A DNA stretch of 64,000 nt from Acidobacteriaceae bacterium (lineage in GTDB: Bacteria; Acidobacteriota; Terriglobia; Terriglobales; Acidobacteriaceae): positions 353,203 to 417,202 of the forward strand of contig PMHV01000059.1 in NCBI GenBank assembly GCA_003156805.1, given 5' to 3'. A program made the translations under genes and the position numbers. The notes below the pieces were generated by a model. The model had not been told where the DNA came from. It made no database searches and saw nothing but the letters and a program-made list of their open reading frames with translations. Of this stretch, positions 10,579 through 16,432 are shown piece after piece; within the stretch, counting starts at the first letter, position 1, and each line of letters begins with the position of its first letter.

Positions 10579-11439
10579 TTACTCCTTCAAATCTACGTGC
10601 TGAACCTTCTCGATCGGATGTCCGAGAAAGCGTTCGCCGAGACGGCGAAACTTGTCGACTGAATCCGTAGCGAAGAATTTGAGGCGGGGAAGCGAGCGGC
10701 GTTCTTCCTGCGCGTTTTCTCCCCGGTTCAGGAGTTTTCCAATGCGTCCAGCGACAGCGCGGGCGGTGGATTCAGCCGAGTCCACGATGGTTACGTGCGC
10801 GGGAGCCACACGCCGCAACACCGGTTTGAGCAGCGGGTAATGAGTGCAGCCGAGGACAAGAACGTCGGCGTCGTGAAAGCCGTCGGCAAAGGCCTCACAC
10901 AGATAAATGCGCACAATCTCTTCGGTTACCGCGTGCTCGATCCATCCCTCTTCTACCAAAGGCACCAGTAAGGGGCAAGCTTTCTCGCGGGCCGCCAAGC
11001 CTCGGGATTCCAGAGCCTTGCGGTAAGCATGGCTAGCAACTGTAGCCTCGGTGCCGACGACTACAATCCTCTTGTTCTTGCTAACCGAAGCCGCGGCCTC
11101 CGCGCCAGGGTCTACCACGCCGATGACCGGAACACGAGCTGCAGCCGTGATTTGATCGAAGGCGAGAGCGGTTGCCGTGTTGCACGCTATGACAAGGAGT
11201 TCTGCCCCATGCGATTCTAGATAATGAGCCGCTTCGACAGCGTAGCGCGCCACCGTGTCAACCGACTTGGATCCATAGGGAAGGCGGGCCGTATCCCCGA
11301 AGTATATGTAATCCGCATCGGGGATGATCTCAAGTAAAACTTTAAGTACCGTTAGGCCGCCAAAGCCGGAATCGAATACGCCGATGGTGGGACGACGGAG
11401 AGTCACGGTCGCACTCCCGTCGCGACGACTAGCGCTCAT
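10579..11439 (-). CDS. murI: Glutamate racemase
   Basis: Interconverts L- and D-glutamate for peptidoglycan. It is 286 aa, with the VFDSGFGGLTVL N-terminal motif, the two catalytic cysteines in IACNTATA (C86) and LGCTHYPLL (C198), and YFGDTARLPYG. Its ATG lies inside the end of the upstream ABC-DtxR gene (11-bp overlap), so it appears to be the last gene of the iron operon and may be translationally coupled to it, an unusual partnership. Confidence 0.96.
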   Translation of the reverse strand: MSASRRDGSATVTLRRPTIGVFDSGFGGLTVLKVLLEIIPDADYIYFGDTARLPYGSKSVDTVARYAVEAAHYLESHGAELLVIACNTATALAFDQITAAARVPVIGVVDPGAEAAASVSKNKRIVVVGTEATVASHAYRKALESRGLAAREKACPLLVPLVEEGWIEHAVTEEIVRIYLCEAFADGFHDADVLVLGCTHYPLLKPVLRRVAPAHVTIVDSAESTARAVAGRIGKLLNRGENAQEERRSLPRLKFFATDSVDKFRRLGERFLGHPIEKVQHVDLKE

Positions 11440-12700
11440 TCATCTCGTCTCGGGTGAACTTGCGGCTGGAGACAACCTGCCGGAGTTCCTTGTCCGGGAT
11501 GCTGACCGCGCAGCACGCTCCCGGCGGAATCGGCGCGCCGTGCGGGCAGGTGCGGGGGTGGCCGAGGAAGGTGCAAATTTTGTCGGTGGCTTCGGGTGAG
11601 AGGATGTGCTCGAACTTGCAGGCTTGTTCCTCGATTTCCGATTCGCTATCCATGGCGAGGCTGTCGGTGAACAGACGCTCGGCCAAGCGGTGACGGCGGA
11701 TGATGCTGCCAGCGCGTTCGCGGCCACGCGGCGTCAGTTCTACAACCACAGTCCCGTCTCCCGTAGAGGCAGACACCGGCTTCAGCGCATCGTGGCAAGG
11801 GTTGGAAAAAGGTTTGTGGATGTGCGGCTCGGGCGGATGCGGAGATGCAACCACAAGGCCCATCCCAGTCATTCTTTCGATGGCCAGGCTCACCGGAAGT
11901 GCGCCGTGAACCTCCATGCGCTCAAGCTCGGCCGGTTCCCCGTGCTCGGCCAGCACCCAGAGTTCTTCCAGCACTTCATCCAGTTGCTCTTCGTTCGCCA
12001 TGGAAAAGATTTCCTGCGCCTCAATCTTGCCGTGATGCAGCTCGATGCGGCGGTCGGCCAGGCGCGCAACCACCGGGTCGTGCGTAACCATGACGATGGT
12101 GCGGCCCTGCTGGTGAAACTCGCGCAGCAGGCGCAGAACGATTTCTTCATTTACCGCGTCCAGGTTCCCGGTAGGCTCGTCGGCAAGAATGATCTTCGGA
12201 TCGTTAATGAGCGCTCGCGCGATGCAGACGCGCTGCTGCTCGCCTCCGGAAAGCTGCGCCGGCAAATGATGAGCGCGGTCCGCGAGGCCAATGCGGGCAA
12301 GGGCTTCGATGGCCTCTTTTTCGTCGGTCATGCTGTGAAAATATTGCGCCAGCATCACGTTTTCGACGGCGGTAAGGAAAGGAATCAGGTGGAACTGCTG
12401 AAAGATGAAACCGATCTTTTCGGCGCGCACTCGATTCAGTTCGGCGGAAGACATCCGCGCAACATCTTGCCCGTCGAGCCAGATCTCGCCGGAGGTGGGA
12501 CGATCGAGGCAGCCGATCAGATTCACCAGCGTGGATTTGCCCGACCCCGACGGGCCCATAACGGAAAGCCATTCGCCGGGCGTCACATGCAGAGAAATGC
12601 GGTCGAGGGCGTGAATGGTCGCGCTGGCGTTACTGTTGGCGTCTGCGCCGCCGCCGGCCTTGGAGGGATAGAGCTTGGTGACGTCTTTGAGTTGGATCAT
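11429..12700 (-). CDS. ABC transporter ATPase fused to DtxR-family metal-dependent regulator
   Basis: The 423-aa chain has two parts. Residues 1-230 are a MacB/LolD-type ATPase: Walker [10 protein letters not shown] (49-57), signature LSGGEQQR (150-157), Walker B ILADEP (171-176), switch His207. Residues about 235-423 read as a DtxR/MntR-like regulator: a winged helix ([15 protein letters not shown]...[11 protein letters not shown]), an elongated His/Pro-rich wing (about 287-316), then a dimerisation and metal-binding domain ([22 protein letters not shown]). His337, Glu341, Cys361, Glu364 and His365 align with DtxR metal ligands. No stop or frameshift separates the halves. An internal ATG at 12001 could start the regulator alone, but only a weak GGAAA precedes it. 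Last transport gene of the FTR1 operon. Confidence 0.88.
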
Positions 12701-12701
12701 C

Positions 12702-13859
12702 TCACTCGCCCCTCAGAATCACTGCCGGCTGCACGCATCGCAACACCGAAATCGGCACAATCGCCGCGGCGAGCGTAACTCCTATGCTACCAGCCAGAAC
12801 CCAGGGCAGCACGCCAAAACGCGGTTCCACCGAAGCGTGGAAGTTAACGCGGCCAATCCAGGCGGCAATTCCGACGCCCAGAACAAACCCAGCCAGCGCA
12901 CCGATGGCGCCCAGCGCCGCGGCCTCTGCGGCAAAAAAGCCGTTCAGTATGCGCTCCGACCCACCCAGAGCCTTCATGATGGCGAAGTCGCGGCGACGGT
13001 CGAACACCCATCCCATGAGCGTAGAAAGCACGCAAAGGCCGGCCGTCAGGATGATAAGCATTGAGGCCGCCAGCAGCGTAGCGCGCATCTTATTGAGCAC
13101 GCGGGCTTCGCCCTCGACAATCTGGCGAACCGGGCGCACTTCAGCGGCGGGTATCGCCTGCGCCAGGTGGCGCATGATGGCGTCCACATCCTCCGGCGAT
13201 CCGTTGGCCTGGACTTCGATTGTCGAAGGCTGGACCCCGGTCCACGCGACAAAATCCGAGAGAGAAAGATAGACTCGGCTGTCTTCGGCAGCGCCCGTCT
13301 GCACCGTGCCTTCCGGTGTCAGATGAATCGTGCGTCCCTGAAGAGTCAATTCAAAAGGCCCTTTGCTCGGCGTGAGAACCGCGAGCGCTCGTACGCCAAC
13401 GAGGGCTTGTTGCGGCTCCGCAGGCCAAGCGCTGACCGACCACCAGCGGTCGAGTTGCTGGACGCGCGCAAAATCTGTGCCCGCGACCACCACGGGTTGG
13501 CCGTCATTTGTGCGGGCGACGACCATGCCAAACGGCGCGGCGATGCCGCGTCTGCCCAACGCCGATTCCGCGCGAGACAACGAGTCTGCGGGGAGTGAAG
13601 AACCATCTTTTCCGACGATGATGAGGTTTGCGCCATAGCTGCGAAACTCGCGGCGAAGCTTGACCTGCACGTCGACGTAGAGATTGAGCATGGCTGTGGC
13701 TACCGCGGCCGCCACCACCATCGCCAGCAGCGCCGATGCGGCACGTCCGCGGCGAAGAACAGCGGCGCGCACCAGCATCCGCACCAGCATGGAAGTGTGC
13801 CGCGCGTGCGCCCGCTTGGATGCCAAGTCTCGTGCCGGCCGCGACGCGGGCGTGCTCAC
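12702..13859 (-). CDS. ABC transporter permease, FtsX/MacB type (iron operon, second permease)
   Basis: A 385-aa membrane protein with one N-terminal helix (ALLAMVVAAAVATAMLNLYV), a large extracytoplasmic domain and three C-terminal helices (around residues 265-370), as in MacB/FtsX permeases. Starts at GTG 13859, overlapping the preceding permease stop as GTGA, which implies translational coupling; an internal ATG (MLVRMLVRAAV) is an alternative. The next gene begins 1 nt after its stop. By order it matches the second permease of the Campylobacter P19-type iron system (Cj1661-1663 set); this is inference from layout. Confidence 0.85.
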   Translation of the reverse strand: MSTPASRPARDLASKRAHARHTSMLVRMLVRAAVLRRGRAASALLAMVVAAAVATAMLNLYVDVQVKLRREFRSYGANLIIVGKDGSSLPADSLSRAESALGRRGIAAPFGMVVARTNDGQPVVVAGTDFARVQQLDRWWSVSAWPAEPQQALVGVRALAVLTPSKGPFELTLQGRTIHLTPEGTVQTGAAEDSRVYLSLSDFVAWTGVQPSTIEVQANGSPEDVDAIMRHLAQAIPAAEVRPVRQIVEGEARVLNKMRATLLAASMLIILTAGLCVLSTLMGWVFDRRRDFAIMKALGGSERILNGFFAAEAAALGAIGALAGFVLGVGIAAWIGRVNFHASVEPRFGVLPWVLAGSIGVTLAAAIVPISVLRCVQPAVILRGE

Positions 13860-15121
13860 AATTCGCCCCGCAGCGCGAAAACGGGGTCGAGATTCACCGC
13901 TCGCCGTATTGCGGCAGCGCTACCCGCAAAGCTAACGAAGACCGCAATCCCGAGAATTACCGGCAAAAGCACGGGCGCAATCGCGACCTCGGAATTGAAA
14001 ATGGAACGCCCGATCTGCTGGGCCAGAGAACTTCCTGCAACGAACCCGACCATGCCGCCCAGCAAGGCCAGCAAAGCCGCTTCCGCGAAAAAGACTGACG
14101 CTACGGCCAGCTTTCCCGCGCCGAGGGCTTTCATCAGTCCGACTTGCGCGCGCCGCTCGAAAACCGCCGTCGCCATCGAAGCCGAAACCGCCAGTGCAGA
14201 GGCGAGCAAGGCAGCCAATGTGACCAAGTAGATCAGGCCCTCGATGCGAGTCAACACCGCTCCTTCGTTTTGCGAAACCTGCCGAATCTGTTCGGCATGG
14301 GAGTGGGGAATTGCCTCCTGCAACTGATGGGCAATCGACTGCGGATAGGGCGAGCAGTACCAGCGGTCGTAGATTGCACCCGAGAGACTTCTCGGGTCGC
14401 GCCGCGCCAGCGCATCTTCCGGCTTAGTCAGAGCGCTCACGTAGACCCGGCGAACAGCGCCGGGCTTTTCGATAATCTCCTGCGCAAGGGATAGGGGCGC
14501 GACTACCATGTCATCTTCCGCGCCGCCCGTCAAAAGAATTCCACTCACGTGAAGCTGGCGTCCAGAGAGCGTAATCGTATCGCCCGGCTTGGCTGAGACT
14601 CGAAGTGCCAGGCGTTCTCCCACAAGAATATCTCGAGAATCGTCGTCGGGCCAGTCGCCGGAAACTTTCCACCAGGGGTGTGTGGTCCGCACGCCGGTAG
14701 TGAAGTCTTCCTTGCCAAATTTGAATCGTTTTGCAAAGTAAGTTCCCAGCAACGTGACATCTTGCTTCTGGCCCCCGCGCTGCAGCGTAGCATTGACCGG
14801 CAACATCGGTGCAAACCCGGTGATGTTGTTGTGCCAGAAAGTTCCTTCGATCTTTGGCAGGTCGGCCTCGTCGAGGAACGCGCCATCGCTGGGCGGCTTG
14901 AGATTGACGCCGCCGATCTCTACGTCGAGGGTGTCATCCTGGGGAGTCACCAGCAGATTCGCGCCGATGGTCCGCAACTCGCGATTGATCTTGTCGCCGA
15001 TGTCTGTAGCCACAGCGATCATCGCTGTAGCCACGGTTACGCCGAGCGTAATGGCTATGCCGGCCAGCAGCTTACGCCGTTTCTGGCGGCGGAACGATTC
15101 GTAAACCAGTCGCACGAACAT
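13856..15121 (-). CDS. ABC transporter permease, FtsX/MacB type (iron operon, first permease)
   Basis: A 421-aa FtsX-like permease: an N-terminal helix (KLLAGIAITLGVTVATAMIAVA), an extracytoplasmic domain of about 250 residues containing a YDRWYCSPYPQSIAHQLQEAIP segment, and three C-terminal helices ending in the usual P-x-xALRGE tail. It begins 3 nt after the FTR1 stop and ends in a GTGA overlap with the next permease, so the four transport genes look like one transcript. It probably forms a heterodimer with the following permease, driven by the ATPase-DtxR protein. Confidence 0.86.
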   Translation of the reverse strand: MFVRLVYESFRRQKRRKLLAGIAITLGVTVATAMIAVATDIGDKINRELRTIGANLLVTPQDDTLDVEIGGVNLKPPSDGAFLDEADLPKIEGTFWHNNITGFAPMLPVNATLQRGGQKQDVTLLGTYFAKRFKFGKEDFTTGVRTTHPWWKVSGDWPDDDSRDILVGERLALRVSAKPGDTITLSGRQLHVSGILLTGGAEDDMVVAPLSLAQEIIEKPGAVRRVYVSALTKPEDALARRDPRSLSGAIYDRWYCSPYPQSIAHQLQEAIPHSHAEQIRQVSQNEGAVLTRIEGLIYLVTLAALLASALAVSASMATAVFERRAQVGLMKALGAGKLAVASVFFAEAALLALLGGMVGFVAGSSLAQQIGRSIFNSEVAIAPVLLPVILGIAVFVSFAGSAAAIRRAVNLDPVFALRGEL

Positions 15122-15124
15122 CGG

Positions 15125-16375
15125 CTATTGTTGTGCGAACACGCGGCTTCCACTCGCGATGTCCGCCTCCTGAATGATGATCGCATCAGCCGTTTGCGCG
15201 GCTTTGAGCGGAAGCGGATTGCACCCTCCGGTGGAACCCACCGATTGCGGACTGATCGGTGCCGCGCAGTTTTTGCAGACCACGCCGTTGGTTCCTTTGT
15301 AGAACCCCACCGCGCCACAGATTCGGCAGGCATCGAAGACCGTTGCAATCGCGCCATCGGGCCTCTGATAGAGCCAGAAACGGATTTCCACACCGTTTTC
15401 CCGCGCCTGAAACCGATGCAAATCGCCGTCCGAAACCTGGGCGATCGGAATCTGAACCTGTCCGTTATCGAATGTGACTTCGGTTGCAGGCGAAAGCGCG
15501 CTTACGCTCTTCGCATAGATGAATTGCGCAGTCACGAGGCTAATGAACACAAAAGAAAAGCCGTAGACGGAAGCCATCCACAACCGCTCTTTGCGAGCTG
15601 TCCAGGCGGCCTTGCGGCGCTCCGCGGGCGAGGCTGATTCGGCCACGGGTTGGCGGCGTTTGGCGTCAAACAGCAGCATTAAGGCCGCCAGCGCAAGAAT
15701 GGTGACGACGAAAAACACTTCGTTGCTGACAATCGGCCCGATGATGGCCATCTCGCGTTTGGACGACCAGATGAAACCGCTTTCCGAAAGCTCGTGCAGA
15801 CCGGTAATCAAGAGCTGCGCCGCCACAAGAAACAGAATCGCGGTGGTGACGCGGAAGAATCTCTGCAGATTGATGCGTACGCTGCCCTTCACGAACATAA
15901 CGCCGAAGGCAATGGCGGCAAGCACCCCGAGCAGAGTGCCAAGAAAGCTCATCAGCTCGGTGGAGTTCAGCGTGACCGCGGAAAGGATCAGCACGGTCTC
16001 GGCGCCTTCCCGCAGCACCATCAGAAAAACGAAGAGAAAAAGACCAAACCATGCGTCATTTCCAGCCAGCAGCCCGATCTTGCCTTCGATTTCACCCTTC
16101 AGCTTGCGTGCCGTCTTCATCATGAAAACGACCATGGTGACGACGAAGAACGCGGCTGCCAGCATGATCCAGCCTTCGAAGGCGTCCTCATTCCAGTGCA
16201 TGCGTGAGATGACAACCGCCACTCCGATGCTGGCAAGGAAGGCGGCCACCAGCGCGGAGTACACCGCCTTGCGCAGGTCGTTGCGGCCGATTTTGGCCAA
16301 ATACGCGAGGGTGATGCCGACAATCAAAGCGGCCTCGATTCCCTCGCGCAGCGTGATGATGAAAGCCTGGACCAT
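15125..16375 (-). CDS. FTR1-family iron permease with C-terminal DUF2318 domain
   Basis: High-affinity iron permease of the FTR1/EfeU type. The 416-aa protein carries both diagnostic REGxE motifs, REGIE (residues 10-14) and REGAE (122-126), within a roughly seven-helix membrane part. A C-terminal periplasmic domain (from about residue 290) has CRICG, CKNC and GGCNP, the Cys pattern of DUF2318, a proposed metal/redox domain encoded separately in some P19-type systems. First gene of the operon, behind an iron-type operator. No P19/FetP periplasmic protein is encoded here. Confidence 0.92.
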   Translation of the reverse strand: MVQAFIITLREGIEAALIVGITLAYLAKIGRNDLRKAVYSALVAAFLASIGVAVVISRMHWNEDAFEGWIMLAAAFFVVTMVVFMMKTARKLKGEIEGKIGLLAGNDAWFGLFLFVFLMVLREGAETVLILSAVTLNSTELMSFLGTLLGVLAAIAFGVMFVKGSVRINLQRFFRVTTAILFLVAAQLLITGLHELSESGFIWSSKREMAIIGPIVSNEVFFVVTILALAALMLLFDAKRRQPVAESASPAERRKAAWTARKERLWMASVYGFSFVFISLVTAQFIYAKSVSALSPATEVTFDNGQVQIPIAQVSDGDLHRFQARENGVEIRFWLYQRPDGAIATVFDACRICGAVGFYKGTNGVVCKNCAAPISPQSVGSTGGCNPLPLKAAQTADAIIIQEADIASGSRVFAQQ

Positions 16376-16409: not shown

Positions 16410-16432
16410 TTGAAAATGAATTTCAATTTCAA
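16410..16432 (-). promoter_or_regulatory. Fur/DtxR-like operator upstream of the iron operon
   Basis: A 23-bp dyad, 11-1-11, with a single mismatched pair. The core TGAAAATGAATTTCA is a 7-1-7 palindrome like Fur, MntR and DtxR-class boxes. It begins 35 bp before the FTR1 ATG and abuts a candidate -10 at 16432-16437, so it would cover the transcription start. Confidence 0.6.

Follow-up and report, generated by a model that had tools for sequence, protein, structure and literature searches.

A Fet-type ATPase fused to a DtxR-type metal sensor in Acidobacteriota and its possible role in feedback on iron import

Little is understood of how cells that are replete with iron restrain their Fet and Feo importers. 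A locus in an Acidobacteriaceae bacterium (GenBank assembly GCA_003156805.1, contig PMHV01000059.1, positions 353,203 to 417,202; this stretch of 64,000 nucleotides is called the window below) raises the question of why the ATPase of an iron transporter should carry, in the same reading frame, a domain otherwise found in metal-dependent repressors of the DtxR family. A preliminary description of the window, made from the sequence alone, had reported one uninterrupted 423-codon frame joining an ATP-binding cassette (ABC) ATPase to a DtxR-type sensor, and had proposed a transport ATPase that reads metal status directly, either as feedback on transport or as a membrane-tethered or bifunctional repressor of its own operon. 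The frame is indeed present, at 12700..11429 on the minus strand, the strand having been left unnamed. Here we argue, with a probability of roughly 0.57, that this Fet ATPase carries a DtxR-derived Fe(II) sensor whose target has shifted from DNA to the transporter, giving feedback on the ATPase.

A fused ATPase at the end of a Fet operon

Pfam searches placed ABC_tran (PF00005, E 1.8e-36) at residues 32-177 of the fused protein and Fe_dep_repr_C (PF02742, E 7.7e-27), the sole C-terminal match at E <= 1, at residues 323-392; the DtxR DNA-binding model PF01325 had no match at E <= 1. Walker A (residues 49-57), the signature LSGGEQQR (150-157) and Walker B (around 171-176) were found where they had been described, as were His337, Glu341, Cys361, Glu364 and His365 of the sensor half. 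The fused gene comes last in an operon, after FTR1-DUF2318 and two permeases; this set forms the core of the Fet iron-uptake system. In Campylobacter jejuni, the fetMP-fetABCDEF core likewise comprises FTR1, DUF2318, two permeases and an ATPase (PMC10783030, PMC6083913), in the same gene order, and the ABC genes contribute to growth when iron is scarce (PMC10783030). The substrates of the Fet ABC proteins are called unknown in PMC6083913.

The ATPase half belongs to the family of FetD from C. jejuni and Escherichia coli plasmids, sharing 58% identity with the E. coli plasmid protein across 202 residues. It formed one clade with FetD (Shimodaira-Hasegawa-like approximate likelihood ratio support 100), as opposed to eight more distant FtrD-linked ATPases, and the DUF2318 domain of the window is 37% identical to that of the E. 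coli plasmid cluster. However, the E. coli plasmid FetD, at 231 amino acids, is unfused and has no sensor, while the operon of the window fuses FTR1 to DUF2318. The earlier label of a P19-type ATPase was apt insofar as the protein is FetD-like, but P19 itself (PF10634) had 0 matches in the window's genome, which is 95% complete.

Fusion was the rule among relatives. It was found in 78 of the 80 named loci (the best 80 in the genome collection, Terriglobia), the exceptions being L104, which meets a contig end, and L132, a broken gene, and it was intact in 28 of the 37 genomes of the genus, the window's own genome counted. These counts led us to reject an assembly artifact or a frameshift as the source of the fusion. 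Among the nine genus genomes without an intact fusion, one (G022) had a broken frame and two (G024, G032) held pieces at contig edges, the G024 piece crossing the ATPase/sensor junction; in four (G005, G009, G017, G026) the operon contig stops before or within the ATPase gene, and in G001 and G010 no Fet operon was found. The frame of the G022 gene (positions 5441-5560 of L042, the same gene as L132; QIAK01000330) is interrupted at the junction; a short deletion, either real or an assembly error, is the apparent cause. Fused genes were present too in other families of the same order, class and phylum, so that the idea of halves that are always separate elsewhere was dropped; a free form exists but stands beside feoB. 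The best 80 of 393 hits taken from a scan of genome contigs were all from Acidobacteriota by title. Outside this phylum no fusion was found, although two plasmid searches, seen for 30 of 77 and 12 of 55 records, hardly test the point; these records were annotated as metal-dependent transcriptional regulators or not at all, and one (H1) was opened.

Selection is purifying on both sides of the junction and strongest in the metal domain. Between the window and 25 relatives, the median ratio of nonsynonymous to synonymous polymorphism (pN/pS) was 0.119 for the ATPase, 0.174 for the winged helix, 0.212 for the wing insert and 0.071 for the metal domain. Unfused ATPases of the same clade numbered 23 (18 in genus g20, 1 in g28, 2 in genus g2 of family f2, 1 in f16 and 1 in f79). 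The ATPase tree contained five changes between the fused and unfused states, one of them being the broken gene of L042, and its starred branches force at least two; an old fusion with several losses fits this tree best, with moderate support. One unfused FetD-type ATPase (L271 122-1135, minus strand) has a short C-terminal tail rich in Cys and His (DACPNCGMNLFKKHEH), which may be another metal-binding appendix.

A conserved metal site and unconserved recognition helices

With few exceptions, 34 fused and 46 free-standing proteins kept Glu242, Glu245 and Trp248 of helix 1; His337, Glu341, Glu357, Cys361, Glu364 and His365 of the metal domain; and Cys376, His381, Cys385, His387, Cys396 and Cys397 farther on, the conservation of the last two being by construction, as they were used to select the rows. 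A further row of this alignment, making 35 labeled as fused, was a chance 66-amino-acid open reading frame of L039. By our own assignment, Glu242 and Glu245 presumably stand at the positions of MntR Asp8 and Glu11, and Glu357 at that of DtxR His98. The kept residues fall on the positions of the DtxR and MntR ligand sets (PMC4805248). Cys361, at the position of DtxR Cys102, suggests iron rather than manganese; PgMntR, which also has Cys at this position, binds both metals (PMC4805248).

The recognition region has fared differently. Mean pairwise identity in helices 2-3 of the helix-turn-helix (HTH) was 0.168 among 15 fused and 0.153 among 19 FeoB-linked proteins, compared with 0.536 among 12 ordinary DtxR proteins. 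The corresponding values were 0.463, 0.456 and 0.624 for helix 1, and 0.618, 0.542 and 0.723 for the metal helices. The mean charge of the winged HTH was -4.3 in fused (n=32), -5.8 in FeoB-linked (n=21) and -0.3 in ordinary DtxR proteins (n=21), six rows being omitted where the helix anchor was not found. One member of the genus (L043 5848-7002) has lost, in frame, about 30 residues spanning HTH helices 2-3, and its metal domain is intact.

A model of residues 229-402 (predicted local distance difference test [pLDDT] score 82.8) matched DtxR 1p92 with Z 17.5 and a root mean square deviation of 1.9 over 135 residues, covering both the winged-helix and the dimerization domains, and its helix 2 was only about 3 residues long. 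The alignments used for folding were built without relatives from the genome collection. The DtxR-like winged helix and metal-binding domain described earlier are thus borne out by PF02742 and by the modeled fold, but not by PF01325. Compared with DtxR, IdeR and MntR, the sensor shares the two-domain fold and the metal ligands; it differs in its unconserved recognition region, in having no third FeoA/SH3-like domain, and in being fused to an ATPase. The His/Pro-rich wing noted previously is a real insert, and its NPCH (residues 300-303) was invariant across 46 aligned sequences, the window included; it may form an extra metal site. In our survey, however, the insert was confined to the window's family, and the fused genes of other families had none.

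Relatives of the sensor beside FeoB

A profile of the sensor half was searched across 396 Acidobacteriota genomes with a cutoff of E <= 1e-24 (>= 89.6 bits). At this cutoff, 69 matches in 67 genomes were obtained, every one extending to the end of the model, while the next-best match (79.1 bits) ended short of the tail; the model ends in the CC motif and so favors it by construction, and the matches seen were those down to about 4e-16. Twenty-two of the 69 were fused to the ATPase, and all 22 lay in FTR1-DUF2318 operons, the assignment of G014 resting on the position of an FtrD match about 3.4 kb upstream. The remaining 47 were free-standing; for 43 of these, a feoB frame on the same strand overlapped or was no more than 260 bases away. 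As for the four without feoB, two were at most 0.6 kb from a contig end, and G446 has FeoB on another contig. Two genomes (G191, G434) contained both forms. A very divergent ATPase fusion (G258, L276) fell below the cutoff; in this protein (L276 9212-10240) the DtxR domain is without the Cys-x-x-Glu-His core and retains CPHG.

The free-standing proteins resemble the fused sensor in ligands, degenerate HTH and the tail motif CPHGxPIPxGxCC, and belong to the same subclade, but they have a C-terminal FeoA domain, adjoin feoB and have no ATPase. All six that were scanned matched PF02742 and FeoA (PF04023); PF01325 was absent from five and under its cutoff in the sixth, and the FeoC Pfam domain had no match in any of the six at E <= 10. 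The pattern IPxGxCC occurred in 45 of the 47. In 16 of 19 genomes checked (of 47), the free-standing sensor held the sole FeoA domain of the genome; G122 and G388 have more, and in G360 a second match was below the cutoff. G388 also encodes tandem FeoA domains in a 419-amino-acid frame (contig C383, 483-1836), besides its sensor-linked FeoA. The same feoB-regulator pair, with the tail motif and a shortened HTH, was found on plasmid pPRO1 of Pelobacter propionicus; therefore, the FeoB-linked form extends beyond Acidobacteriota. No FeoB_C match (PF07664) was found in the window's own genome.

In the tree of sensor domains (35 rows removed by a motif filter, two ordinary DtxR proteins left as outgroup), the FeoB-linked proteins formed one cluster, which also took in a single, very divergent fused row. 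The other rows labeled as free were fragments of the G022 and G032 fused genes only. Two fused rows, L032 and L221, were mis-cut (branch 7.64), and the divergent fused row L276 was very long. The sensor subclade with the CPHGxPIPxGxCC tail and its two settings are new here. No fusion of DtxR to an ABC protein or to another transporter was described in the titles and abstract openings of the open-access literature, subscription papers being outside this scope, and a paper on Feo evolution (PMC8749426) contains neither the word "DtxR" nor the word "repressor".

FeoC, a small winged-helix protein, offers a partial parallel at the Feo importer but has no DtxR metal domain. It has been described as shielding FeoB from proteolysis (PMC10710835) and is thought to regulate Feo uptake by a mechanism called unknown (PMC8749426). 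FeoA was reported to contact NFeoB in a nucleotide-dependent manner and to stabilize its GTP form, although the introduction of the same paper calls its function unknown (PMC8980893). In the FeoB-linked proteins, the FeoA domain would deliver to FeoB the same switch that is proposed below for the Fet ATPase.

Feedback on transport and its alternatives

ABC ATPases work as a pair, which places two sensors under one transporter, and DtxR-family sensors are twofold dimers in which helix 1 closes on the metal site upon metal binding. In the mechanism that we propose, cytoplasmic Fe(II) would fill the DtxR-type site, formed by Glu242/Glu245 with His337, Glu341, Glu357, Cys361, Glu364 and His365, and its binding would order helix 1 against the dimerization domain. 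The metal-loaded sensors of an ATPase dimer would then pair and hold the nucleotide-binding domains apart or in a non-productive state, and iron entry would stop in the replete cell. This would be a form of the trans-inhibition known from MetN and ModC, exerted through another sensor fold. Both of these ATPases carry C-terminal regulatory domains, responding to methionine and molybdate, respectively (PMC10710835). Judging from sequence and the modeled fold, the window's sensor would occupy the same position as a C-terminal, ligand-binding, dimerizing domain, and the proposed feedback logic is the same. However, it is DtxR-type, matching PF02742 only, and is not homologous to the MetN C2 or ModC domain, and the permeases of the operon are FtsX/MacB-like. 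Operon transcription would be under a control of its own, most likely that of Fur acting at the upstream palindrome (Table 1).

This palindrome had been named as the site at which metal-dependent DNA binding might be sought. Compared instead with the E. coli Fur consensus, it matched at 14 of 19 positions, a score equaled by 1 in 1000 simulated sequences. At least 13 of 19 positions matched in 37 of 42 Terriglobia upstream regions (mean 13.6, against a simulated mean of 10.5), and 27 of the 42 contained the exact 19-mer of the window; outside the Terriglobia set, 6 of 39 regions reached this score. The window's genome encodes a single Fur and a single ordinary DtxR, whose HTH is intact (PF01325 E 4.6e-13). 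In view of its Fur-like sequence, the Fur gene in the genome and the degenerate HTH of the sensor, the palindrome is most likely a Fur site, and its reading as a DtxR operator is disfavored. Indeed, an operon whose ATPase is without a sensor (L263) has a Fur-like site scoring 15/19. Not every operon has such a box, however, which speaks against a simple Fur story: among 13 fused regions from beyond the 80 loci, just 4 scored 13 or more and 9 scored less, and the sensor-less genus g20 reached 13 in 1 of 19 regions. A second match to the palindrome pattern in the genome (C74) had no recognized iron gene nearby, and a scan for promoters and terminators gave no more matches than chance, one promoter-like site adjoining the palindrome.

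If the metal-loaded DtxR half bound this palindrome (16410-16432), the protein would be a membrane-tethered or bifunctional repressor that shuts its own operon. Its complete two-domain DtxR fold, the promoter-like site (from a scan no better than chance) and the annotation of a free-standing relative as a transcriptional regulator would suit such a role, as would the distribution of the box, which is frequent in Terriglobia regions but reached 13/19 in only 1 of 19 in the sensor-less genus g20. Set against this are the recognition helices 2-3, unconserved and unmatched by PF01325, with helix 2 of about 3 residues in the model, and the in-frame loss of that region in L043. The palindrome itself is Fur-like, has its 15/19 counterpart in the sensor-less L263 and is below 13 in 9 of the 13 fused regions outside the named loci, and the genome has a Fur and an ordinary DtxR with an intact HTH in any case. 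The recount of boxes raised the probability of self-repression slightly and lowered that of feedback on the ATPase slightly; on balance we consider the former distinctly unlikely. A separate regulator could also arise if translation began internally at Met234 as well, so that some of the sensor was made without the ATPase. This Met is shared by 42 of the 46 aligned clade sequences (window included) and is preceded in the window by AGGA 10 nucleotides upstream. Such a start cannot be general, as only 3 of the 19 fused proteins examined from other families, two of the 19 having no readable segment, showed a Met within 20 residues past the end of the ATPase, and we regard this explanation as highly improbable.

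Two further alternatives leave the sensor on the transporter and take away its signal. As an iron acceptor or chaperone, the domain would collect Fe(II) entering via FTR1 and pass it on, with no switching of the ATPase. The conserved Cys376, His381, Cys385, His387, Cys396 and Cys397, which go beyond the needs of a DtxR switch (the last two conserved by construction), and the NPCH that the window's clade has in its wing insert could serve such a carrier, but the ligand set and the fold are those of the DtxR regulatory site, and the retained dimerization domain would be left unexplained. We consider this role unlikely. DtxR domains are dimerization domains, and the ATPase occurs without a sensor in several lineages; the domain might therefore merely dimerize or stabilize the ATPase, its metal being structural and not a signal. 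This is quite improbable, since no part of the sensor half is better conserved than the metal-domain helices and the same module adjoins the unrelated transporter FeoB. Feedback on transport, one of the two options of the preliminary description, thus appears plausible because the ligands are conserved, the fusion is common and maintained by purifying selection, and free relatives beside feoB usually supply the only FeoA domain; the other option, repression of its own operon, is disfavored by the state of the recognition helices, the L043 loss and the Fur-like sites of the window and L263.

Several observations weigh against feedback on the ATPase. In 23 of 57 rows of the ATPase tree the sensor is naturally missing (the broken gene of L042 excluded), so it is dispensable, and five fused proteins have Gln in place of His337. 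The winged HTH is strongly acidic in the window's clade alone (-6 to -10 in 13 rows), the other fused rows ranging from -4 to +2 (19 rows). The winged-helix fold is intact and, in the window's clade, constrained (pN/pS 0.174), so that it must have some role, possibly in DNA or protein binding. Within the family, the g20 count means that box and sensor mostly co-occur, as a self-operator would predict. The full-length AlphaFold model was poor (pLDDT 58.7) and gave no geometry of the sensor relative to the ATPase. The choice of inhibition over activation is a physiological guess, and the nature of the signal, Fe(II), and the pairing of the sensors are proposed from sequence, a fold model and analogy.

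The remaining features of the locus are listed in Table 1. A match to the glutamate racemase was found in 50 of the 80 named loci, many of which are cut short; the pairing is conserved and has no evident link to iron. In two genomes of genus g6 (G041, G043), the fused ATPase gene (L033 6254-7363, L036 6557-7666) stands apart from the FTR1/permease operon, and no ATPase was found within the stretch of that operon that was fetched; the gene of L033 adjoins a nuoB-like gene. We count this arrangement in favor of feedback on the ATPase.

Table 1. Features of the fused gene and its operon (positions are those of the window)
Feature	Position	Strand	Basis
FetD-type ABC ATPase and DtxR-type metal sensor in one frame	11429..12700	minus	423 amino acids and stop; open reading frame list, Pfam
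ABC nucleotide-binding domain, residues 1-232	12005..12700	minus	PF00005 E 1.8e-36
Degenerate winged helix-turn-helix, residues 238-322	11735..11989	minus	modeled secondary structure, fold match, conservation
Wing insert, residues 287-318, His/Pro/Cys-rich	11747..11842	minus	alignment, invariant NPCH
DtxR metal-binding/dimerization domain, residues 323-392	11525..11734	minus	PF02742; ligands H337 E341 E357 C361 E364 H365
Tail motif CPHGxPIPxGxCC, residues 385-397	11510..11548	minus	common to FeoB-linked relatives
Met234, candidate internal start at junction	11999..12001	minus	AGGA upstream
FtsX/MacB-like permease (FetC-like)	12702..13859	minus	PF02687; 31% identity to E. coli plasmid FetC-position permease
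FtsX/MacB-like permease (FetB-like)	13856..15121	minus	PF02687, PF12704; 41% identity to E. coli plasmid FetB-position permease
FTR1 iron permease fused to DUF2318/FtrD (FetM and FetA parts)	15125..16375	minus	PF03239 E 5.9e-37, PF10080 E 6.3e-28
Glutamate racemase	10579..11439	minus	start 11 bases inside 3' end of fused gene
Conserved palindrome 5' of operon, Fur-box-like (14/19)	16410..16432	none	consensus match, conservation

It is about an even bet that the fused and FeoB-linked proteins form one DtxR-derived family of DNA-independent Fe(II) switches, which plugs into two unrelated iron importers, FeoB via FeoA and Fet via fusion to the ATPase. If so, many proteins beside feoB that are annotated as metal-dependent transcriptional regulators would be transporter subunits, and their annotations would be wrong. 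Iron importers in Acidobacteriota, and in the FeoB form on at least one Desulfuromonadales plasmid, would be gated post-translationally by a former repressor. Overall, a repressor family would have changed its job from DNA to transporters, with one sensor serving two unrelated importers.

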